Of a stretch of DNA of 64,000 nt, positions 1,792-46,931 are shown piece by piece. Each line of letters opens with the position of its first letter. The first letter of the stretch is position 1. The DNA lies in the IMG/VR virus record IMGVR_UViG_3300028920_000039, positions 1 through 64,000 of that record; one strand, 5' to 3'. The notes under the pieces were generated by a model, which was not told where the DNA came from, searched no databases, and saw only the letters and a program-made list of their open reading frames with translations. The DNA is from a virus. Both the position numbers and the translations under genes were made by a program.

Positions 1792-3093
1792 TTGGAGGAC
1801 TATACTGTTACTCGAGTAAATGGTGATCTCGGCCTATCTCACCAAGAATCAGGTATGTTTCTCACAGTGGACGAAGACTCTCCTTGGGACACCTTCTTTT
1901 TAGACGATATCGAGGAGTGGGGTGGTAAGGTCACAGCCGTTAAGAAGCTATCTCCTGCTCTCAAGAAACGACTGGAAGATCTCTACAGTGAGGTGGTACA
2001 GGCGCTTCATTATGAAGAGTCAGCCGAAGACTTCTCCACAACCACTATGAAGCATCGAGGTGGCGGAGATCTTCACAGACTTCACTATCAGGACAAAGGA
2101 TATCTTGATTATCAGGAAGAGGATGGGCTGTACTTTCTGATCAAGGTGACGGTCCTGCCTGAGCATAGACGCCAAGGTATTGCTACAAAGCTTCTCCGAA
2201 AATTTCTTGACATGGTCAGAGAGAATGAAGGAGCTGTTGATATTTCAGGCTACACTGAGATGGGTGAGAAGTATCTTAAGCATGTGGTGACTCGATTGAA
2301 AGACGAATATTCTGATCTGGTGTGGATGGATGAAGGTGTTGACAAGGCCATTGAGTTCTTGCTTGATGAAGCAGTTCCTGAAGACGAACCACTTGTTTTT
2401 CCCGATCATCCTGATGCCAAGTATTGGAACCTAACAACTACAGACATGCCGTTCTACGACGATCTGATGCGGTTACCAACTTACTTCAAAGACCACAAAG
2501 GCTTTGAAGCTAAGATGGAGTGGTTATCCCCTGTTAGCTATTTGAAAAGATGTAAAGAAATGTTCGATTGTACGTGGGCAAATTTGGAACAAGGTGTTTC
2601 CGAAAAACGTGTTGATGAATATGCCAAAATGATGCAGAAGGGTACGAAGTTTCCAGTTTTAACGTTAGAGCCATCCAGAGGATACCAAGAAGGCCGCCAT
2701 CGTGCCCTTGCAGCGTTGAAAGCAGGCATTCGAAGAGTGCCGGTTTTGACTGTCATGGAACCTGGCAGGAAAGAATCGGTTGAAGAAGAGGGTGAGTTCC
2801 CGGCAGGTGACTGCTATCGAAACGTCTACCTGAAAGCCAAGCAACTAGACGATGAGCACCCCGGTTTGAAGATCGCACACGGCAAGATCTACACCATCAA
2901 GGGCGACAAAATGATTGACCACGCTTGGATTGAGCTGGACGACAAAGTGGTTGATCCGACAGCGGGTGTGGAGATGGACAAGGAGAAGTGGTATGGACTG
3001 GTTAACGCCGAGCTACATAGCCACTATTCTTATGAGGAAGTCATGGTGAATACCCTCAGAAACCGGCATTGGGGGCCATGGGAAGAAAAATAA
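1792..3093 (+). CDS. Multidomain tagged protein: GNAT-like, ParB/Srx-like and transglutaminase-like segments
   Basis: 433 residues from a weak TTG start. Residues ~113-140 contain VTVLPEHRRQGIATKLL, a typical acetyl-CoA binding motif A of GNAT acetyltransferases. Residues 181-193 (EGVDKAIEFLLDE) match the window's recurring tag and act as a linker. Residues ~285-320 end in EGRHRALAALKAGIRRVPVL, resembling the GxxR/HR box of ParB/sulfiredoxin-like domains. The C-terminus has Cys341 (GDCYRN), His377 (DHAWIE) and Asp388 (VVDPT), spaced like a papain/transglutaminase-type triad. Substrates are unknown. The start is doubtful: a GTG at 1746 overlapping the previous stop opens a frame whose peptide would join this one smoothly if one G near 1793 were absent, so the intact gene may begin at 1746 with a frameshift. 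Confidence 0.8.
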   Translation: MEDYTVTRVNGDLGLSHQESGMFLTVDEDSPWDTFFLDDIEEWGGKVTAVKKLSPALKKRLEDLYSEVVQALHYEESAEDFSTTTMKHRGGGDLHRLHYQDKGYLDYQEEDGLYFLIKVTVLPEHRRQGIATKLLRKFLDMVRENEGAVDISGYTEMGEKYLKHVVTRLKDEYSDLVWMDEGVDKAIEFLLDEAVPEDEPLVFPDHPDAKYWNLTTTDMPFYDDLMRLPTYFKDHKGFEAKMEWLSPVSYLKRCKEMFDCTWANLEQGVSEKRVDEYAKMMQKGTKFPVLTLEPSRGYQEGRHRALAALKAGIRRVPVLTVMEPGRKESVEEEGEFPAGDCYRNVYLKAKQLDDEHPGLKIAHGKIYTIKGDKMIDHAWIELDDKVVDPTAGVEMDKEKWYGLVNAELHSHYSYEEVMVNTLRNRHWGPWEEK

Positions 3094-20336: not shown

Positions 20337-20993
20337 ATGAAAAACAAACAGATTGAGGCTGCAATCGACATGGTGATGGAGCAAGAAGGTGAAAGCTGGA
20401 AAACAGACCCTATTTTGAGCAAGTTTCCTCTTGTGAAAGATAAGGGTCCTTACAGTGAAACGGATAGAAAAATAACTCGTAAAGAATGGAAGAAAGTAAA
20501 GCGTCGGTTGGAACAACTAGGCTACATTCGAGGAGATATAGAGCATGATTGGGGTCGAGGAGGAGGTAGCCGAGTATACTACAACCTTCCCGATAGATCA
20601 GATGAATGGATTATTTTCTTTATAACAAATCCACTGCCCGGCACGGACCCTAAAAGGACTGTAACCATTCGTCACTATGGCGTTCACGGAATGGTGCAGA
20701 ATGAAGCTGAGTACGTCGCGGGTCCTGATCTTGATCTTGGCAATCTGAAAGTAGGAGATACAGTCAAAGATTCTGAAACAGGTGAGATCATTTCGCCTAT
20801 CAAAGGGAAAACTGTCATCCTTAACAGGGGCTATGCAGCCAAGGATGAAACAGGCAGGATCGATATTGTCAAAAACCTTTTAGGTGGCCCGGAGATAAGG
20901 TTTTGGTTGTATCCTGATGAAATTGCCGCTCTGCATTCGTTGATCATGCCCACAGAATCTTCAGAAAGCGGGGGAGATTCGGATGCCACTTGA
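20337..20993 (+). CDS. Tag-bearing protein of virion gene cluster
   Basis: 218 residues from ATG behind AAAGGAG; a GTG at 20334 is the less likely start. Residues 4-18 (KQIEAAIDMVMEQEG) are an N-terminal copy of the recurring tag. Next comes a basic helical part (RKITRKEWKKVKRRLEQLG, winged-helix-like), then a beta-rich part with WIIFFITNPLPG. First gene after terminase. Function unknown; likely virion-associated by the tag. Confidence 0.75.
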   Translation: MKNKQIEAAIDMVMEQEGESWKTDPILSKFPLVKDKGPYSETDRKITRKEWKKVKRRLEQLGYIRGDIEHDWGRGGGSRVYYNLPDRSDEWIIFFITNPLPGTDPKRTVTIRHYGVHGMVQNEAEYVAGPDLDLGNLKVGDTVKDSETGEIISPIKGKTVILNRGYAAKDETGRIDIVKNLLGGPEIRFWLYPDEIAALHSLIMPTESSESGGDSDAT

Positions 20994-22050
20994 AAAGAAA
21001 AACCAGAAAATCAGGCGTTGCTTCGGCTGCGGTGAACCTCTGAAACCCGGTGAGAAAACCTTCTGCAAGAAATGCCGGCGAGTTCCTGGGCATGGTGAAT
21101 CTGCTGATCCCATCGAGCAAGCCATTGATATGGTTGGTGAAGCAGACGAGAGGCAACCTAAAACACGAGAGGCTTTAGGAACCGCCCTGCAAAACCTCCA
21201 AACGGCACTTTCCGACAAGATACAGCAGTACGAAGAGTTTGCTTCGGTTACAGTAGATCCGAAAGGTGCTCGGAAGTTGCAAGTGGTTTTCACCCTGGGT
21301 CCTGGTTATGAGAACAAGGTTTTCTATAGATGGGATCCAGAAGGCCCTGTGATTGAGCTTCCTATCGCATACAATGCGAAACAAGGATACAAGTACTTTC
21401 CGTTTTCGCAACGATTGAAGTCCAAGACAAAGAGGTCCGCTTACAGCACCCAAACAGGTATCCACTGGAAAGACGTGGAACCAGAGAGGCTCGCCAAACC
21501 TGTCATCACAACTTCTGCTGATGAACTGGCGGACGTCTTGGTGAAGGATGCTCTCGACAATCTTGTTGGGGAAATGGATGTTGATAGTTGGAATGAGATA
21601 CTGAAGGGCGAATCTCAAGACCCTATCGAACAAGCCATTGATATGGTGATGGAACAGGAAGGTGATTGGATTATAGTGGGGTTCCATAGTAGTGATCCAC
21701 ATGAGGTTTTTGAGCCCGGCCCTATAGTTGATTTACTGGGTCCATTGACTCGAGAGCAGTTTGTGAAAGAGGTTGATAAGTACCTCAAACATCCTGATTT
21801 TAAGAAGAAACCAGGTTATGGTCCCTACAAGCCAATTCCTCATACAACTGGAGAGCCCTATTGGGGTCGGTTTCCTTCAGCCGAAGGGATGATGATGGCT
21901 TCAAATGATGGTGGCTCATATTTCTTTGCAGGTCCTCGAAAGTATGTCATGGATGTGTACAATCATTCAAAAAAGTTTGACGAGATGCCTCCTTGGTATC
22001 ATGATTTTGAGGTTCTCTTTCCTGAGATGTGGCCACCAAAACGACACTAA
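20983..22050 (+). CDS. Zinc-ribbon protein with two internal tags
   Basis: 355 residues overlapping the previous gene by 11 nt. Residues 13-32 form a zinc ribbon (CFGCGEPLKPGEKTFCKKC). The tag appears twice: DPIEQAIDMVGEAD around residue 42 and DPIEQAIDMVMEQEGD around 213. The segments between and after them are unrelated, so the protein looks like two tagged modules joined head to tail. The second ends in an aromatic-rich domain (YFFAGPRKYVMDVY). It may have arisen by fusion of two genes each starting with the tag. Confidence 0.8.
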   Translation: MPLEKKNQKIRRCFGCGEPLKPGEKTFCKKCRRVPGHGESADPIEQAIDMVGEADERQPKTREALGTALQNLQTALSDKIQQYEEFASVTVDPKGARKLQVVFTLGPGYENKVFYRWDPEGPVIELPIAYNAKQGYKYFPFSQRLKSKTKRSAYSTQTGIHWKDVEPERLAKPVITTSADELADVLVKDALDNLVGEMDVDSWNEILKGESQDPIEQAIDMVMEQEGDWIIVGFHSSDPHEVFEPGPIVDLLGPLTREQFVKEVDKYLKHPDFKKKPGYGPYKPIPHTTGEPYWGRFPSAEGMMMASNDGGSYFFAGPRKYVMDVYNHSKKFDEMPPWYHDFEVLFPEMWPPKRH

Positions 22051-22066
22051 GTTGTAAGGAGGGGTA

Positions 22067-22408
22067 ATGAAAGACCCCATCGAACAAGCCATTGATATGG
22101 TGATAGGCGAAGCAGTGCCTTCGCTTGAAGATCCGATTTTCAAAGGTGAGATCAATGAGCTCGGTGACTTCATTTTGGCAGGCAACCTTCCCAAGGCTAT
22201 TGATGCAGTCAAGAATCTGATCAAAAAGGTGCAGAAGTTTGGGCAAGGAATCAGCCCGAAGATGTTTGGTGAAGCCACCCTTATCCTTCCTGACGACATG
22301 GTTTTCCAGGCTGAGATGAATGATCTGAGAGATTTCATTTTGACAGGCAAAGAGCAGAATGCTATCACGATGTTGAGGAAGCTCATCAACCGTGCTTCCA
22401 AACTATAG
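22067..22408 (+). CDS. Tag-bearing helical repeat protein
   Basis: 113 residues, ATG behind AGGAGGGG. Residues 3-15 are DPIEQAIDMVIGE at the N-terminus. Two homologous helical units follow: EINELGDFILAGNLPKAID at ~26 and EMNDLRDFILTGKEQNAIT at ~80, each ending in a basic helix. The internal duplication implies a two-lobed helical protein. Function unknown. Confidence 0.75.
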   Translation: MKDPIEQAIDMVIGEAVPSLEDPIFKGEINELGDFILAGNLPKAIDAVKNLIKKVQKFGQGISPKMFGEATLILPDDMVFQAEMNDLRDFILTGKEQNAITMLRKLINRASKL

Positions 22409-22416
22409 GAGTAAAA

Positions 22417-23322
22417 ATGAAAATCAAACTAGATGAAGCAATAGATATGCTTTGTGGTGATGAAGAGCCGACAGAGCGCAAACGTGAATTCTTTCAGTAC
22501 ATCAAATCTGGCAATGAGTTTCAGCCCGTCGGCCCCATCAAGCTCGTAGATCGACTGGATCCCTATGCTTACCGTATCCTGACATGCCCTCTCCGATTCC
22601 AGAAGGAGGACATCAGCACAGACCAGCTGTACATGTTCGAGGGCTCCAAGATGAACGCTGTCATGGAAGAGATCAAGCGTTTCTGGACACTCAAGGATAA
22701 CTTCGAGAAACTGGGTCTGCTTCACAACCGCGGCATTCTCATGTATGGCCCTCCCGGCACTGGCAAGACTTGTCTCATCAAGCAGGTCACCGAGCACATG
22801 ATGTCACAGGGCGATGTGCTGATCCATGCTCGTTCCCTCGGACCGGTTCTGCAGGGTTTGCCTGTTCTCAGAGAGGTTGAGTCTAGCAGGCGTTTGGTTG
22901 TGGTGTTTGAAGACATGGACGAATACATCGGCTATGACGAGCGAAACATGCTTCAGCTGCTCGACGGATCGTCTTCAGTGGACAATGTGCTCTTCCTGGG
23001 TACTACCAACTACATCGAGAAGTTTCCTGAGCGCCTGCTGCGCCCGGGCAGATTCGACAAGAAGGTAAGAATCGACTATCCTCCGGTAGAGGGGCGGCTT
23101 GTTTATCTGCAACATAAGCTCAAGGGAATTGAGGAGGAAGAGAAGATCCAACAGCTGGCTCGGCAGACGAAGGGCTTCTCGTTCGGACATCTTCGCGAAC
23201 TTGTTATCGCCGGCTACGCCTTCCAAGAGGATGTGAATGAGGTGATCAAGCGGCTCGGTGGCACTTCCTACAACATGCTTCCTGAAAGGGAAGAAGGGTT
23301 GATTGAAAGCCTGCGGAGGTAA
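22417..23322 (+). CDS. AAA+ ATPase with N-terminal tag
   Basis: 301 residues. Residues 3-17 (IKLDEAIDMLCGDEE) match the recurring tag. The ATPase core follows: Walker A YGPPGTGKT at ~111, Walker B VVVFEDMDEY at ~162, sensor 1 LGTTN at ~196, arginine finger-like RPGRFDKKV at ~210, and a helical lid. Resembles the BCS1/FtsH branch of classical AAA ATPases. Lying between packaging and portal genes and carrying the tag, it may act in head assembly or be carried in the virion; both are inference. Confidence 0.85.
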   Translation: MKIKLDEAIDMLCGDEEPTERKREFFQYIKSGNEFQPVGPIKLVDRLDPYAYRILTCPLRFQKEDISTDQLYMFEGSKMNAVMEEIKRFWTLKDNFEKLGLLHNRGILMYGPPGTGKTCLIKQVTEHMMSQGDVLIHARSLGPVLQGLPVLREVESSRRLVVVFEDMDEYIGYDERNMLQLLDGSSSVDNVLFLGTTNYIEKFPERLLRPGRFDKKVRIDYPPVEGRLVYLQHKLKGIEEEEKIQQLARQTKGFSFGHLRELVIAGYAFQEDVNEVIKRLGGTSYNMLPEREEGLIESLRR

Positions 23323-23323
23323 C

Positions 23324-24004
23324 ATGACTGCTAAAGACTTTTGGGTTGAATACTTCTCACCTGTCGGTGAGTATGGGGCCTATGGAGGTTATTCTCCTAT
23401 AGACAAGCTCGAAACCGAAGAAGAGAAATGGGCGGCTGTGGCTGATGACGTTATGGCCGATTACAGTCCTGATTTGGATGATCTGATGGTTCGAGGAGAA
23501 TTTCCACCTTCCGTTGCGAGGAGGATCAATTCAATCTACGACGCTATCAAAGCCAAGTACGGTATAAAGGAAACTACAGATCCTATCGAGCAAGCCATTG
23601 ATATGGTTTTATCTGAGCGAGTGTCAGGGGGAACCCGACTGAAGCGAGCACTCCCCAGCAATGCCAAAATCATCCCTATTTCTAAGTGGAGTCAGGATGA
23701 TGTGATTGAGCGCCTCCTTGCAGATGATGGTATACCTGTTGAAAGAGACGGTGAGTTTTTGAAGGTGTGGGATGATTCATACATTGGGTATGCAGATGTT
23801 GATGGGATCGTTTTTCAGATAGCCACTAATTGGATTCCTCTATGGCAAGCAAAGGAATGGGAAGACTTTCAAAGATTGGCTGACCCAGGCACATTGTATG
23901 CTATTTCTGCTGAGGACTATATGGACAGGCAAGAGGATCTTGAAACTGCGATTGAAGATATGGGCGCAGCCGGTTTCGAAGTAGGCAGTTTCGAAGGCTT
24001 CTGA
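23324..24004 (+). CDS. Tag-bearing virion-like protein
   Basis: 226 residues, ATG behind GGAGG. The N-terminal ~80 residues form a helical domain, then a central tag DPIEQAIDMVLSE at ~86, then a mixed domain with FLKVWDDSYIGYADVDG and an acidic helical end. The tag is a linker here, the same arrangement as in the 1792 and 20983 genes. Not recognised. Confidence 0.75.
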   Translation: MTAKDFWVEYFSPVGEYGAYGGYSPIDKLETEEEKWAAVADDVMADYSPDLDDLMVRGEFPPSVARRINSIYDAIKAKYGIKETTDPIEQAIDMVLSERVSGGTRLKRALPSNAKIIPISKWSQDDVIERLLADDGIPVERDGEFLKVWDDSYIGYADVDGIVFQIATNWIPLWQAKEWEDFQRLADPGTLYAISAEDYMDRQEDLETAIEDMGAAGFEVGSFEGF

Positions 24005-24032: not shown

Positions 24033-26045
24033 ATGGCACTAATCAAGCTTCAGCCCTGGCGGGCCATCAAAGTTCTGTTCGGCTACAGCGCCGATGGTAA
24101 CAAGCAGAGTCTCGTCATGCCACACGGCATGAAGAACCTTGCCATGAATATGTACACCTACGGCAAGGACCCCCTTTCTACATGGTACGCTCGCAAGGTT
24201 CACCTTACCCAAGATCGTTTGCAAGCATACAAAGAGTTCGACGATATGGACTCTGATGACGTTGTTGTTTCAGCATTGGACCTTTACGCGGAGGACTCGA
24301 CTCAAGCGGACACTAATACCGGTCGTCGAATTTGGGTCGAGGCAGAGGATGAGAAGGTTGAAGAAATTTGCAATGACATGTTTGATAGGATCAATGCTGA
24401 CGAGCAATGCTTCTCGATCACACGTGAAATTGCCAAGTATGGTAACTCCTTCGGCGCTGTTATTCAGGAAGAGAATGCTGACGGAACGCCAGGAAAGGTC
24501 ATACAGCTTTTGGCGGCTCCGGTGTATGCCCTTTCCCGTATCGAAGATGAAGAAGGTCGGCTCATCGGTTTTGCAGTAGCGCCGATTGAGCAGATGGGAA
24601 GTACCATTGGCATGGCGCAGCCCAGTGATCTGACACAAGGTAAGCCAACCGACCCTCCTTGGGCCTTTGTTCATTGGCGGCTGCTCGGTCGTGAAAGGAT
24701 CGAAAGTTATGGCACTTCTCTGTTGTGGCCGGCACGTAGACCTTATCGCCGGCTGCGAATGGCTGAAGACGCACTCGTCATATACCGACTTAAGCGCTCA
24801 CCTGATCGTTTCGTCTTTGGAATCAAAGGTCTGAGCGGCATGGCTCCTGAAGACCGCCAGAAGATCATGCGGAAGATTCGACAGGAACTTCGCAAGAAAC
24901 ATCTCATCAATCCTGAGACGGGGCAGGTTCGCTCAGAGTTGGAACCGCTGGGTGTAGACGAAGACATCATTGTCGACGAAGAATCTGTCAATGTGACACG
25001 CTTGACAGGAAGTGCCCAGGTTAACCATGTGTTGGACATTGAATATCTGCGTAAGCGGTTCATGGGTAGTCTGAAGATCCCCCCTGACTACTTGGGGTTC
25101 TCTGATGCCAAGTCAGGCTTCATTGCTGAGTCTCCTCTTTCCTATCAGGACATCAACTTCGCACGTGTGTGTAAACGCTTGCAAGCGGCAAGTATGGATG
25201 GGTTTTCATTACTGTGTCAGATCAACATGGCTTGGTGTGGCATAGACCCTCGAGCGGGTCTAGCCAAGTTCTTCGTTCACATGAATCCTGTCAGCTCGCT
25301 GGATGAGCGTAATCAACTTGAGCTAGAGAAGGTGAGGGCAGAGACGTTGGAGATTCTCACTAAGGTAGGTGCTGCTCTTGGTATTGATTCCGACGAGTGG
25401 CATGCCTTCCTGCTCAATCGCAGTCGTTTGCCATCACATCTGTTCAGGAAGAGCGGCAAGGATGGAATGGACCTTCTCAGAGGACAAGTGATGGTCGAAA
25501 AGAAACCTCTTGATGAATCCAAGTGCGAGTCTATCGAAGAGTCCCTCAAGACGAGTGATAAGGTCACAGTCGAAGAGAAGCAAGAGTTCAACCAGCGGTT
25601 GCATGGTTTGATCTCTTTGCGAGAGTGGAAGGAAGTCACTGAATACGATGAGGAAGGCAGTCGTCAGATAAAGATCATTGATATGGTTCGTCTGCTCAAT
25701 ATTCGTGAGCTATTCTCGCCTGCACTTGGTTCGAATATTCGTAGCAGCAACGTGGTGCTGCATGTGGTTGAAGATCAGCACATTCCTCTCAGTGTACCAG
25801 GAACCGACAAGAAGCTACTCGAAGCCAAGACGGTAACTGAGTGGAATAGCGAAGATAAAAAGACTGAGGTGAAGAAAACCAAGGATCTGATGGAGCGAAC
25901 CATTGAGGGGTTGAAAAAGAAGCAGGCTGAGGAAGAAGATCGACAGAGAAAGCTTCAAGAGCTATCCGAAAAGTATGGCATTGATCCAGAAGATTTCGAA
26001 GAATTTGACCTTGAGGAGGAAGACGATGAAGAAGATGCTGACTGA
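24033..26045 (+). CDS. Portal protein
   Basis: 670 residues. Resembles T4 gp20-like portal proteins: an N-terminal wing, SITREIAKYGNSFGAVIQE, then ESYGTSLLWPARRPYRRLRM and EDALVIYRLKRSPDRFVFGI around residues 225-270, typical of the portal stem region, then DIEYLRKRFMGSLKIPPDYL. The C-terminal ~170 residues are charged and coiled-coil, ending in an acidic tail. The dodecameric portal forms the DNA channel at one capsid vertex and docks the terminase. TTGTAAG at 24012 precedes it. Confidence 0.9.
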   Translation: MALIKLQPWRAIKVLFGYSADGNKQSLVMPHGMKNLAMNMYTYGKDPLSTWYARKVHLTQDRLQAYKEFDDMDSDDVVVSALDLYAEDSTQADTNTGRRIWVEAEDEKVEEICNDMFDRINADEQCFSITREIAKYGNSFGAVIQEENADGTPGKVIQLLAAPVYALSRIEDEEGRLIGFAVAPIEQMGSTIGMAQPSDLTQGKPTDPPWAFVHWRLLGRERIESYGTSLLWPARRPYRRLRMAEDALVIYRLKRSPDRFVFGIKGLSGMAPEDRQKIMRKIRQELRKKHLINPETGQVRSELEPLGVDEDIIVDEESVNVTRLTGSAQVNHVLDIEYLRKRFMGSLKIPPDYLGFSDAKSGFIAESPLSYQDINFARVCKRLQAASMDGFSLLCQINMAWCGIDPRAGLAKFFVHMNPVSSLDERNQLELEKVRAETLEILTKVGAALGIDSDEWHAFLLNRSRLPSHLFRKSGKDGMDLLRGQVMVEKKPLDESKCESIEESLKTSDKVTVEEKQEFNQRLHGLISLREWKEVTEYDEEGSRQIKIIDMVRLLNIRELFSPALGSNIRSSNVVLHVVEDQHIPLSVPGTDKKLLEAKTVTEWNSEDKKTEVKKTKDLMERTIEGLKKKQAEEEDRQRKLQELSEKYGIDPEDFEEFDLEEEDDEEDAD

Positions 26046-42308: not shown

Positions 42309-42461
42309 ATGAAAGACTCTGTAGAACTGGCGATTGAACGGGTCATGTCAAACTTTCGGAAGCGGACAGTGGAGTCAGCAGAGCCCGATGAGTTTGATGA
42401 CGCTATCATCGAAGAGCTACTAGAGGAGGAGCTCACAGAAGAGCTTGAGGAGCAGAGATGA
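42309..42461 (+). CDS. Small acidic protein with N-terminal tag
   Basis: 50 residues: KDSVELAIERVMSNF at 2-16 is a divergent copy of the recurring tag, and the rest is acidic helix (DEFDDAIIEELLEEELTEEL) that repeats an AI-x-x-L pattern. Ends overlapping the protease start (ATGA), so co-translated. Could be an inhibitor or propeptide partner of the protease; this is inference. Confidence 0.65.
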   Translation: MKDSVELAIERVMSNFRKRTVESAEPDEFDDAIIEELLEEELTEELEEQR

Positions 42462-43285
42462 AGTTCGCAACTGGTTGGATTCGAGACTTTGAGGATCCTC
42501 GAGATTACACTGTAGATTCAGATGAGGTGGTGCCTTTCCTCCTTCGCCGTGAAGCATTCGGTAACAAGGATGGAAAGAAGATTCCGAATCGCTATACTAT
42601 CCCTTCATTGCCTCCTATTAAGCAGCAGGGCCGCATTGGTTCTTGTACAGCTCATGCAGCTACAACCATGTATGAGGCCTATCTGCAAGTAGCTGATCTC
42701 ATTGGCGAGCCCCTTAGCCGCCGTTTTCTGTACAAAGTCACACGAAATCTAATGGGAGAGAAGAGCGACTCCGGGGCTTACCTTAGAACTACCATGCAAG
42801 CCATGGCGATGTTTGGCATACCTCCCGAGCGCTACTTCAAGTACAGCATCAAAGAATATAACCGAGAACCGTCCGGTTTCCATTATTCTATGGCGCAGAA
42901 CTACCAGGCTCTCACCTACTATCGCCTGGATCGTCGTGAGAAGCCTGAGAAGACGATTGATTGCATCAAGACCAACATTGCCGCTAATCGTGCTTGCATG
43001 TTTGGCTTTGTTGTGTTTTCAAACCTGAAAGAGGACGGTGACATTCAGCTCCCGAGTCGGCGTGACAAGGTTGAAGGCGGACATGCTGTTTGCGCTGCTG
43101 GCTACAATGACATCTACAAGGTTGGTGATTCTGTAGGAGCGTTCAGAATTGCTAACTCATGGGGCACTGAGTGGGGTGACGATGGTTTCGGATGGCTCCC
43201 TTACGACTACGTTAGATTTGGACTTGCCACTGATTGGTGGACGATAATGAAAGGTGAATGGTTGGAGCTGGACTGTTTCAAATGA
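42458..43285 (+). CDS. Papain-like cysteine protease (C1 family)
   Basis: 275 residues. QQGRIGSCTAHAATTMYEAY places catalytic Cys63 after Gln57; GGHAVCAAGYND (~208) supplies His, and IANSWGTEWGDDGFGWLPYDYV (~232) the Asn and the NSWG box characteristic of papain-like C1A enzymes. The N-terminal ~50 residues may be a short propeptide. No signal peptide is seen, so it works in the cytoplasm or capsid. It sits between two tagged proteins (42309, 43282), so cleavage of tagged cargo or a maturation role is possible but unproven. Confidence 0.9.
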   Translation: MKFATGWIRDFEDPRDYTVDSDEVVPFLLRREAFGNKDGKKIPNRYTIPSLPPIKQQGRIGSCTAHAATTMYEAYLQVADLIGEPLSRRFLYKVTRNLMGEKSDSGAYLRTTMQAMAMFGIPPERYFKYSIKEYNREPSGFHYSMAQNYQALTYYRLDRREKPEKTIDCIKTNIAANRACMFGFVVFSNLKEDGDIQLPSRRDKVEGGHAVCAAGYNDIYKVGDSVGAFRIANSWGTEWGDDGFGWLPYDYVRFGLATDWWTIMKGEWLELDCFK

Positions 43286-43650
43286 AAGACGAGGACATCG
43301 AAAAAGCAATAGACCACATGATGCTTGATGAGGTGGAGTTCATGAGTCCGGGCGATCCTCGTTACAAGCAGCTCATGCAGTTCCAGAAGAAATATGGCCA
43401 CATGCCTCCGACTGCTCGAAGGGTGCATCTCGGCTCTCCAGGCAGCACTTTGGCTCCAAGAGGGGCAATGAAGAAGAATTCATTGTCGGAATACATCTAC
43501 CAGAAGCTGGTGGCCGCCCATGAGCACTGGACCAGCCCTGACTACAGCGATTCAGTAGACGATGCTACTATGATTGGTGAGCTTGAGAAACAGCTTGAAC
43601 AAGAAGTTGAAGCGGCTCTTCGAGCCTACAAAGAATGGGCTACACACTAA
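43282..43650 (+). CDS. Tag-bearing protein downstream of protease
   Basis: 122 residues, ATGA overlap with the protease. N-terminal KDEDIEKAIDHMMLDE is a clear tag copy. A Pro/Gly-rich middle and a helical end with GELEKQLEQEVEAALRAYKE follow. Unknown function, one of the tagged set. Confidence 0.7.
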   Translation: MKDEDIEKAIDHMMLDEVEFMSPGDPRYKQLMQFQKKYGHMPPTARRVHLGSPGSTLAPRGAMKKNSLSEYIYQKLVAAHEHWTSPDYSDSVDDATMIGELEKQLEQEVEAALRAYKEWATH

Positions 43651-43985
43651 TGAATGAAGCAAAAGAACGTCGGTTGGTTTGGGTGGATGTTGGTCACCGG
43701 TGGCGTGATGCTTTTACTAAGTGGTTTAAGCAGAACAAGATGCCTATTTGGGATCAAGGGTGGACTCGAGGTTCCACTGGTTGGGGTTTTCAGGTTGAAA
43801 CAGACCTGACACCTGATGACCTCCAAGACAAGCTCTGGAACGAGGTTCCGGGTGCCGGGATGATTGCTATTTCGACGGGTTATGTGGATGACGACGAGGA
43901 AGACGACGAACAAGACGTGTCCGGAGATTACCCCTCCATTTTTGATGCAGAAGGTCGTTACCAGACGCGACAGATGGGCCAATGA
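43650..43985 (+). CDS. Hypothetical protein
   Basis: 111 residues from ATG 43650; an in-frame ATG at 43635 lies inside the previous gene. MNEAKERRLVWVDVGHRWRD opens a mixed domain with GSTGWGFQVETDLTPDDLQD and an acidic tail. The next gene also has a TTGWGF motif, so the two may be related. Not recognised. Confidence 0.6.
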   Translation: MNEAKERRLVWVDVGHRWRDAFTKWFKQNKMPIWDQGWTRGSTGWGFQVETDLTPDDLQDKLWNEVPGAGMIAISTGYVDDDEEDDEQDVSGDYPSIFDAEGRYQTRQMGQ

Positions 43986-44820
43986 AGAACCGGATGATTA
44001 CGAAGACCATAAAGATATGGCAGATGCTGCTTGGTACTATGCAACAGGAGATCAAGTAGCTTCTCCTCCTGCTGAATTGGTTCGTTATGCAGAGAAAGAG
44101 ATATGGCAACCGCACGTGAAATCAACGTGGGAAGGCGTCGAAGCAGCTATCGCCACACTGGTTGAAAAGAGCTCAAAGAAAGTTACAACTGGTTGGGGTT
44201 TTATGGATGATGATTATGCAGAATACGAAGAGATGTCTGATTACAGAATGAGTGATGACATACAGGCTCTCAAGAAAAAGGTGCAAAAACTTGCAGACCA
44301 GTACGATTGGAAGATCATTGAATGGGTTGATGATTCTGATCGTTCAGGAATGTATGTTCAAGTCTATCTCGAGGTGCCTTTTACGACAACAGAAGAGGAA
44401 GTGTCGGAAATCCTTGGACAAGAAGCAGAAGAGGTCGAAGAATCCATTGATGCAGCTATCAACATGCTTCTTGAGCAACCCAAGGTTCGAAAGGCTAGCG
44501 TCGCTAAGCAGATCAATGATCTTCTGAAATCAGTCGGCTTCAAAATTGATGGCAGAGAGACCACCGCTGGTGCTATCAAGACGTGGCTTAAGAAAGAAGA
44601 TGGTTTTACCATGGAAGAGATTTTAGATGTGCTCAAACTTGTCTTTCCTCGAACATACATTCACGAGTATGAGATAGTTTTTGGGAAAGGTCCAAAGGTG
44701 AAAGACATTTATGTTCCTGGCGTTGCAACCTTGGAAAAGCAAGGAAAGACCGGTTTGTTTGTAGCAGTGTATCAGAGAGGACGTGGCGGCATGGAATATG
44801 AGATGGGACTTGATGTATGA
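43945..44820 (+). CDS. Tagged protein with uncertain start
   Basis: 291 residues from ATG 43945; this start overlaps the previous gene by 41 nt and has no good ribosome site, and the frame is open farther upstream. VTTGWGFMDDDYAEYEEMSD near 75 echoes the preceding protein. Central VEESIDAAINMLLEQ at ~160 is a tag copy, then a small domain (KASVAKQINDLLKSVGFKID) and a last beta-rich part. A frameshifted fusion with the preceding gene is possible. Confidence 0.65.
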   Translation: MQKVVTRRDRWANEEPDDYEDHKDMADAAWYYATGDQVASPPAELVRYAEKEIWQPHVKSTWEGVEAAIATLVEKSSKKVTTGWGFMDDDYAEYEEMSDYRMSDDIQALKKKVQKLADQYDWKIIEWVDDSDRSGMYVQVYLEVPFTTTEEEVSEILGQEAEEVEESIDAAINMLLEQPKVRKASVAKQINDLLKSVGFKIDGRETTAGAIKTWLKKEDGFTMEEILDVLKLVFPRTYIHEYEIVFGKGPKVKDIYVPGVATLEKQGKTGLFVAVYQRGRGGMEYEMGLDV

Positions 44821-45579: not shown

Positions 45580-46077
45580 ATGAAATGGTATGTCGCAGAG
45601 TTCAATGTGTCTCCTGGGTTGCCCAGTGGCCTTCCAGAGTTTATTAATGCTGTTGTTTTGCCTACAAGGTTGGCTGCGATTGGCCTGTTGAAGAAAAGAT
45701 CTGAAGCGCTGTCTCCTGGCAATGAACTGGTTTTAGGATCGGGTGAAGGTGGAGAGGAGTATTTTCCTACTGAATTTGAAGAACCTCCTGTTGAGTCTTC
45801 CGACCCCATCGAAGCAGCCATCGACCACATGCTGGACGAGAAAGGTGGAAAGACCTTCTCTCTAAAGGGCCGAGGTAAGAAGCCCGCTACCTTCAAGAAA
45901 GGCGCCCTTCATCGGCAACTCGATGTTCCCCAGGACAAACCGATCCCGCCAGGCAAGAAAAAGGCTGCTTTGGCCGGAGAGTATGGTCCGCTTGCTAAGA
46001 AGCGAGCAACAGCTGCTTTCAAAGGTATACTGAAGAAGGGTCGTGAGACTGCTGCGGCAGGAAGGAAGAAATCATGA
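45580..46077 (+). CDS. Tagged protein with basic C-terminus
   Basis: 165 residues, ATG behind ATAGGAG. The N-terminal ~70 residues are a beta-alpha domain (MKWYVAEFNVSPGLPSGLPE). A middle SDPIEAAIDHMLDEKGG at ~74 is a tag copy. The rest is very basic (KGGKTFSLKGRGKKPATFKK, KKGRETAAAGRKKS), suggesting nucleic-acid binding inside the capsid. Its stop overlaps the next ATG. Confidence 0.75.
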   Translation: MKWYVAEFNVSPGLPSGLPEFINAVVLPTRLAAIGLLKKRSEALSPGNELVLGSGEGGEEYFPTEFEEPPVESSDPIEAAIDHMLDEKGGKTFSLKGRGKKPATFKKGALHRQLDVPQDKPIPPGKKKAALAGEYGPLAKKRATAAFKGILKKGRETAAAGRKKS

Positions 46078-46931
46078 AGCATAGCGAAATCCAAGAGATG
46101 TTAGTTCCCGGTTCCACCAAGGTGGTGGTTGAAGCAGAGGAAGAAATTGCCGTTCGTGTAGGCAACATGAATTACCAGGTTCAGAATGGCGGTTGGGATC
46201 AGTGGTGGGATAATGGATACGGACCTCGCGACATTGATTGGTTGGTTGACTTTTTTCACACACATCGAGAATATAAGTCTTTCAAGTGGATTTTTGATCT
46301 ACTTGAAAAGGTACAATACACAAGTGAGCTTCCGGGTACGGAAGAGTGCACATGGTGTGGCGGTTCTGGTGAAATTGAAGATGAAGATCCTGAAACTGGT
46401 GAAGTGGAGTATGAGGAGTGTCCTGAATGTAGAGGTACTGGTGAGGTGGCAACTGATGAACCTTCTTTTCCTGATGAGTATGATGATTCCTACTATGCTG
46501 GCAATGACAAGCTGATGGATGACATGGAGTTGTACCTTTCAGGCAAAGGGGATGAGATCGAGACAGTCAGTCCAGAAACCACTCCGAAGGAAGAGCCTCC
46601 TGCGGAAGAGCCTCCTGCGGAAGAGCCTCCTGCGGAAGAGCCTCCTGCGGAAGAGCCTCCTGCGGAAGAGCCTCCTGCGGAAGAGCCTCCTGCGGAAGAG
46701 CCTCCTGCGGAAGAGCCATCTGCGGAAGAACCATCTGCTGAAAAGAAAAGACCTCGTGTGAAGCTGGTAGGCACGGACGGCAACGCCTTTGCAGTTCTGG
46801 GCACAGTCACTCGTGCACTCAAGAAGGCTGGTTACTCCAAGGAAGAGGTGGATGAGTTTCGAAGGGAAGCTATGGGCGGGGACTACAATCATCTGCTGGC
46901 AACAGCAATGGAGTGGGTGGATGTGTACTAG
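46074..46931 (+). CDS. DnaJ-type zinc-finger protein with PPAEE repeat
   Basis: 285 residues, ATGA overlap with the previous gene. Residues ~92-128 hold two CxxCxGxG motifs (CTWCGGSGE, CPECRGTGE), as in the DnaJ zinc centre. Residues ~172-222 are about ten EEPPA repeats from a 15-nt DNA repeat. The last ~55 residues (VKLVGTDGNAFAVLGTVTRA onward) form a small domain widespread in phage and plasmid proteins whose function is unknown. The repeat acts as a flexible acidic linker. Confidence 0.75.
   Translation: MKHSEIQEMLVPGSTKVVVEAEEEIAVRVGNMNYQVQNGGWDQWWDNGYGPRDIDWLVDFFHTHREYKSFKWIFDLLEKVQYTSELPGTEECTWCGGSGEIEDEDPETGEVEYEECPECRGTGEVATDEPSFPDEYDDSYYAGNDKLMDDMELYLSGKGDEIETVSPETTPKEEPPAEEPPAEEPPAEEPPAEEPPAEEPPAEEPPAEEPPAEEPSAEEPSAEKKRPRVKLVGTDGNAFAVLGTVTRALKKAGYSKEEVDEFRREAMGGDYNHLLATAMEWVDVY
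46590..46742 (+). repeat. 15-nt tandem repeat encoding EEPPA
   Basis: About ten copies of GAAGAGCCTCCTGCG, nearly identical at DNA level except the last two or three. Copy number probably changes by slippage. Not a CRISPR array: no unique spacers. Confidence 0.85.

Follow-up and report, generated by a model that had tools for sequence, protein, structure and literature searches.

A short peptide on otherwise unrelated proteins of an uncultured T4-like phage is a probable capsid-targeting and cleavage tag

Why should a 23-nucleotide segment recur almost base for base in otherwise unrelated genes of one virus? The window analysed here, a stretch of 64,000 nucleotides, is positions 1–64000 of a 135,046-bp record of an uncultured virus, and an earlier note had placed five such segments in it, at 1294–1316, 21112–21134, 21625–21647, 22079–22101 and 23585–23607. 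All five are present at these positions, compared with zero expected from 100 dinucleotide-preserving shuffles. The 23-mer encodes the middle of a peptide, D-P-I-E-Q-A-I-D-M-V, hereafter the tag. The scan for copies covered the whole record and identified two more beyond the window, at 71258 (2 mismatches) and 70901 (3 mismatches); a scan with the majority sequence added a copy at 894 (5 mismatches). These eight copies with five or fewer mismatches all lie on the plus strand, in one frame and within genes, and the 135,046-bp record holds no non-coding, out-of-frame or antisense copy. The next matches start at seven mismatches (18 cumulatively, versus 2.8 for shuffled patterns), and some of those at seven or more mismatches are further divergent tags.

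At the peptide level, the same short sequence is found on at least ten otherwise unrelated proteins of this T4-like phage. A looser motif, D-x-I-E-x-A-[IV]-D-x-[VL], occurs at about 14 places in the record, and 11 matches score above 13 bits where 0.4 would be expected in shuffled proteins, although the profile was built from tags of the same genomes and scores in those genomes are therefore partly circular. Together, the shuffle controls for DNA 23-mers and for motif scores rule out a chance origin of the repeats. Outside the tag, no similarity among the tagged proteins was detected, and nearly all of them match no family, the exceptions being an AAA ATPase and a GNAT domain.

The tags of the window, all on the plus strand, begin with DSIEQAINMI followed by LDE at 888–917, which is likely N-terminal in gene 801, given a GTG start at 882 behind GGAGG. 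The first of the five original copies belongs to the N-terminal tag of gene 1282 (1288–1317, DPIEQAIDMV and LAE), and a divergent internal tag, EGVDKAIEFL with LDE, sits at 2332–2361 between a GNAT domain and a C-terminal region. A cluster of tags then occupies 20.3–23.6 kb, directly upstream of the portal gene (24033–26045, plus strand; phrog_213, E = 1.3e-34). It starts with the N-terminal KQIEAAIDMV and VME of gene 20337 (20346–20375) and continues with gene 20983, whose product carries the second and third original copies as two internal DPIEQAIDMV tags, one after a zinc-ribbon-like N terminus (21106–21135, followed by VGE) and one further on (21619–21648, followed by VME). The fourth copy is the N-terminal tag of gene 22067 (22073–22102, DPIEQAIDMV and IGE), and the fifth is internal to gene 23324 (23579–23608, DPIEQAIDMV and LSE). 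Between these two, within the cluster, lies the AAA ATPase gene (22417–23322), with a divergent N-terminal tag, IKLDEAIDML, at 22423–22452. Further along, gene 42309 begins with the divergent DSVELAIERV (42315–42344), and a gene in G001 starts similarly, MDVRIEEAIERVMKNF; gene 43258 has EDIEKAIDHM and LDE near its N terminus (43291–43320, after MKDED); and gene 43864 has an internal ESIDAAINML and LLE (44440–44469). Beyond the window, gene 70613, in the head module, carries two tags, at 70895 and 71252, one of them with a possible GTG start at 70889. Overall, the tag is N-terminal or nearly so in about seven genes and internal in genes 20983 (two copies), 23324, 1792, 43864 and 70613. A C-terminal sequence of the tail tube, VIDKAIEIVLEA (78097–78132), was considered and dropped, as its relatives do not keep it.

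The near-identity of the DNA could reflect the DNA or the peptide. Among the six strict copies, identity is 88% over the 30-nt tag and falls to 28% in one and 31% in the other of the flanking 36-nt stretches, bearing out the remark in the earlier note that the surrounding proteins are unrelated. Codon identity exceeds a codon-usage null, at 0.77 versus 0.43 for codons 3–9 and 0.62 versus 0.41 for all ten codons (p about 0.001 or less in each case), which indicates that the copies share descent. The note had also described conserved synonymous third positions. This holds for the ATC (Ile) and CAA (Gln) codons, which are invariant in 8 of 8 copies even though CAA makes up only 34% of Gln codons, but the Asp, Pro, Glu, Ala, second Ile and Val codons all vary between copies; the 23-mer coordinates trim the most variable codons, Asp-Pro upstream and the end of Val downstream. 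In the six strict copies pS is 0.58 and pN 0.02 (pN/pS about 0.03), and this combination of strongly diverged synonymous sites and low pN points to selection on the peptide and not on the DNA. Synonymous states are linked in pairs, with 21106 matching 23579 (GAT...GAG...GTT) and 21619 matching 22073 (GAC...GAA...GTG), and AIDMVMEQEG at 20352 and 21625 is the same peptide in different codons. Duplication or gene conversion of a cassette of about 23 bp, as the note had suggested, is supported by the excess codon identity and the linked pairs, but given the large synonymous divergence this does not require a recent event. The near-identical DNA can be accounted for by copying together with selection on the peptide, without a separate DNA site.

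The note had proposed, in addition, selection on the DNA itself as a recombination hotspot or a packaging or binding site; the location of the 23-mer inside genes would then be incidental. The excess codon identity and the invariant ATC and CAA are what such an element would predict. We nevertheless reject a DNA-level function, which we consider very improbable, as every copy is coding, on one strand and in one frame with none intergenic, 58% of synonymous sites differ, divergent tags keep the peptide and not the DNA, and the peptide motif is common to relatives. Slightly less credible still is a selfish micro-element inserted in frame, comparable to the Rickettsia palindromic elements and of no benefit to the carrier protein. 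It would account for one segment in unrelated proteins with similarity stopping abruptly outside, but not for the low pN/pS, for the placement of tags at protein starts or apparent domain borders, or for the conservation of the motif in diverged relatives, with tags kept in AAA orthologues; by eye, the 30-nt segment also has no inverted-repeat structure.

What follows the tag suggests its role. A [LIVM]-x-E sequence lies within four residues after 23 of 29 tags, compared with 12–13% at control positions (p about 1e-15), after 11 of 15 tags in relatives only (p = 2e-7) and after 11 of the 13 distinct tags of the record (p = 1e-8); these p values treat tags as independent though they are related by descent, and are thus too small, the last two counts being the fairer ones. 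In some copies the first position is V or M and not L or I, and six of the 29 tags have no such site, among them those of two of three AAA ATPases, including the one in the cluster. The site is close to the rule of the T4 prohead protease gp21, which cuts after L/I-x-E (PMC9026906). The record encodes a member of the gp21 family (PF03420 Peptidase_S77, E = 1.6e-16; gene at 65238–67400), fused to a long charged tail that is presumed to be the scaffold, and a gp23-family capsid protein (PF07068 Gp23, E = 1.2e-54; 67581–69044). LAE is conserved near the N terminus of the capsid proteins (LVE in one), and most protease–scaffold fusions of relatives have [IL]TE near the C terminus, which fits a cleavage specificity like that suggested for the tags.

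The best reading of these sequence patterns is that the peptide probably works as a capsid-targeting and cleavage tag similar to the T4 capsid-targeting sequence (CTS), a reading supported by its occurrence on unrelated proteins and in relatives, the enrichment of [LIVM]xE, the S77 protease and Gp23, the position of tags beside portal and head genes, and the T4 precedent. The short, probably helical tag would bring cargo to the core of the prohead, possibly through binding to the scaffold portion of the protease–scaffold fusion; the gp21-type protease would then cut after the trailing [LIVM]-x-E, and the products would be packaged and ejected. On this reading the DNA copies are near-identical because duplication or conversion carried the tag from gene to gene and strong selection on the peptide has preserved it. 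AlphaFold predicts short tag helices in the two-tag protein (20983–22047), and these carry little weight because the prediction is of low confidence (mean pLDDT 43.5).

As in T4, where unrelated internal proteins (IPI–III and Alt, cut by gp21) bear a common short peptide (PMC9026906, PMC3012670), the tag precedes an L/I-x-E-type site in a genome that encodes both a gp21-family protease and a capsid protein of the gp23 family. The likeness extends to DNA near-identity between otherwise unrelated genes: the CTS regions of T4 ipII and ipIII share 32 of 33 nt, then 18 of 60. By eye, the N termini of T4 ipI–III (NC_000866) and the tag have no clear common motif beyond a charged, amphipathic look. 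The present tag differs in having many more carriers and several internal copies, sometimes two or three per protein, and the present protease in its fusion to a long scaffold-like tail.

Relatives inform the reading of the internal copies. The capsid protein search identified seven viral contigs with 53–76% identity, and the AAA and portal searches two contigs of one further relative, IMGVR_UViG_3300032401_000033 (L070) and IMGVR_UViG_3300037011_000700. Tags are found on other proteins in G007 (DSIESAVDKV-LGE, DAIERAVDKV-LAE, ESIEGAVDQI-LKE and NEIQKAVDRL-VGE) and in G005 (DPIEEAVDHV and DLIEEAVDHL-LSE), as well as in L070 (DPIEEAIDHV-LLE, DFIEREIDRV-LSE, EQIESAIDLM-LTE and TFIETMIDRM-LTE); the profile scan of two fragments, G002 and G003, gave no tag above 13 bits. 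In L070, a 976-aa open reading frame consists of three tag-plus-domain units and the next gene forms a fourth, with tag residues I, E, I, D, L and E invariant among the units. The AAA ATPase, which has its own gene in the present record, is in G007 part of a stop-to-stop reading frame of 1,099 residues that contains two internal tags. Given these fusions, internal tags look like former or alternative N termini of fused modules. Two scans of 2.9 million viral contigs with the bare motif, which are independent of capsid-gene kinship although their patterns derive from the same tags, recovered the same rare contigs plus a small number of others, with matches also in L081, L085, L088–L090 and L092. 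Exact IEQAIDM matches elsewhere in the viral collection (L012–L015) fall in two unrelated contexts and were taken as chance.

From the inter-domain copies we infer what would be new relative to the known CTS, a polyprotein-like cargo. It is possible, with the balance tilting slightly against it, that this T4-like lineage builds capsid cargo as polyproteins, in which CTS-like tags between domains load one long precursor and the gp21-type protease cuts at each tag to release several mature effectors, which would then be ejected into the host. By fusing and splitting tagged modules, the phage could rearrange the set of proteins that it injects. Counting against an inter-domain role, the known propeptides of T4 and SPN3US are terminal and not internal in the portions of PMC9026906 and PMC10052503 available; T4 Alt is also cut C-terminally (PMC9026906, in part). 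We found no description of prohead-protease polyprotein cargo in the open-access literature searched.

A tag on unrelated proteins could also be a docking or oligomerization motif that serves some other protein of phage or host (the tagged AAA ATPase, for example, or a host factor) and plays no part in head loading or cleavage. The amphipathic, helical look of the peptide would suit such a motif, as would the tag variants on AAA ATPases, two of three without the [LIVM]xE site. We regard this as unlikely, though well ahead of the other alternatives, because a protease-type site is strongly enriched right after the tag, tags cluster beside the portal and head genes, and the genome encodes an S77 protease. 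That the tag instead singles out proteins for a protease of host or phage, which would degrade them or set their timing, as the AAA ATPase gene inside the cluster might hint, seems most improbable: the AAA protein is itself tagged, and internal positions with a trailing [LIVM]xE better match prohead processing.

The proposed capsid targeting by the tag has partial parallels outside T4. In the giant phages SPN3US and phiKZ, a gp21-like protease cuts after a short motif ending in Glu, and many proteins are packaged and ejected; their propeptides differ in being long, with some exceeding 100 residues, and in being N-terminal except for the self-cleavage of the protease, and the accessible text describes no short tag repeated over many unrelated proteins (PMC5694885, PMC10052503). 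For DarB and the Dar proteins of phage P1, a short N-terminal stretch suffices for head entry and delivery, but a single carrier was tested, with 30 residues, and the sections available report no repeated inter-domain tags (PMC9024508). The polyvalent proteins of phages and plasmids are likewise multi-domain delivered proteins that need processing into units; the parts of PMC5512222 consulted attribute release to an embedded metallopeptidase, whereas here it would fall to inter-domain tags and the prohead protease.

If the targeting role is correct, the proteins that a phage injects into its host can be listed by their tags from sequence alone, in a lineage for which the present searches found no cultured close relative and among proteins most of which match no known family. 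Injected phage proteins often counter bacterial defences. The tag would also provide a short, transferable signal with which proteins could be loaded into capsids, and the inter-domain copies, if they act as proposed, would carry the targeting principle of T4 over to polyprotein cargo.

Several minor observations concern the same genes and relatives. The GNAT acetyltransferase domain of gene 1792 (1792–3093) is joined via its divergent tag to a C-terminal part that is ParB-like by eye. A papain-family cysteine protease gene (42458–43285; PF00112, E = 2e-12) lies between two tagged genes. The protein encoded at 46074–46931 has a (PAEEP)n repeat and a DnaJ-like zinc motif, and its C-terminal domain recurs at the end of a 559-residue G007 reading frame, suggesting domain shuffling. 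Three G007 reading frames, at 43721, 47930 and 51408 (L059), have a second repeated peptide, VREQ[EVG]G, between domains, which may be another processing signal. In the relative L080, a minus-strand reading frame of 212 residues has a copy of the tag at its C-terminal end, DPIEEAIDEMLEAD. Three nearby G006 genes, at 614, 2281 and 2906 (L054), have the variant xVIDQLLERE in common, either internally or close to the start, and it may be a tag particular to that phage. In Xanthomonas phage phiXF1 (L075:8245-12261), the AAA ATPase homologue makes up the C-terminal part of a multi-domain protein of 1339 aa that contains repeated segments of ferredoxin-like appearance and no clear copy of the tag. 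Finally, the portal proteins of L070 (15439–18435, 998 aa), G002 and G005 look interrupted by an intein-like insertion, which in L070 has an HNH-like motif inside; unlike these, the present portal is uninterrupted.
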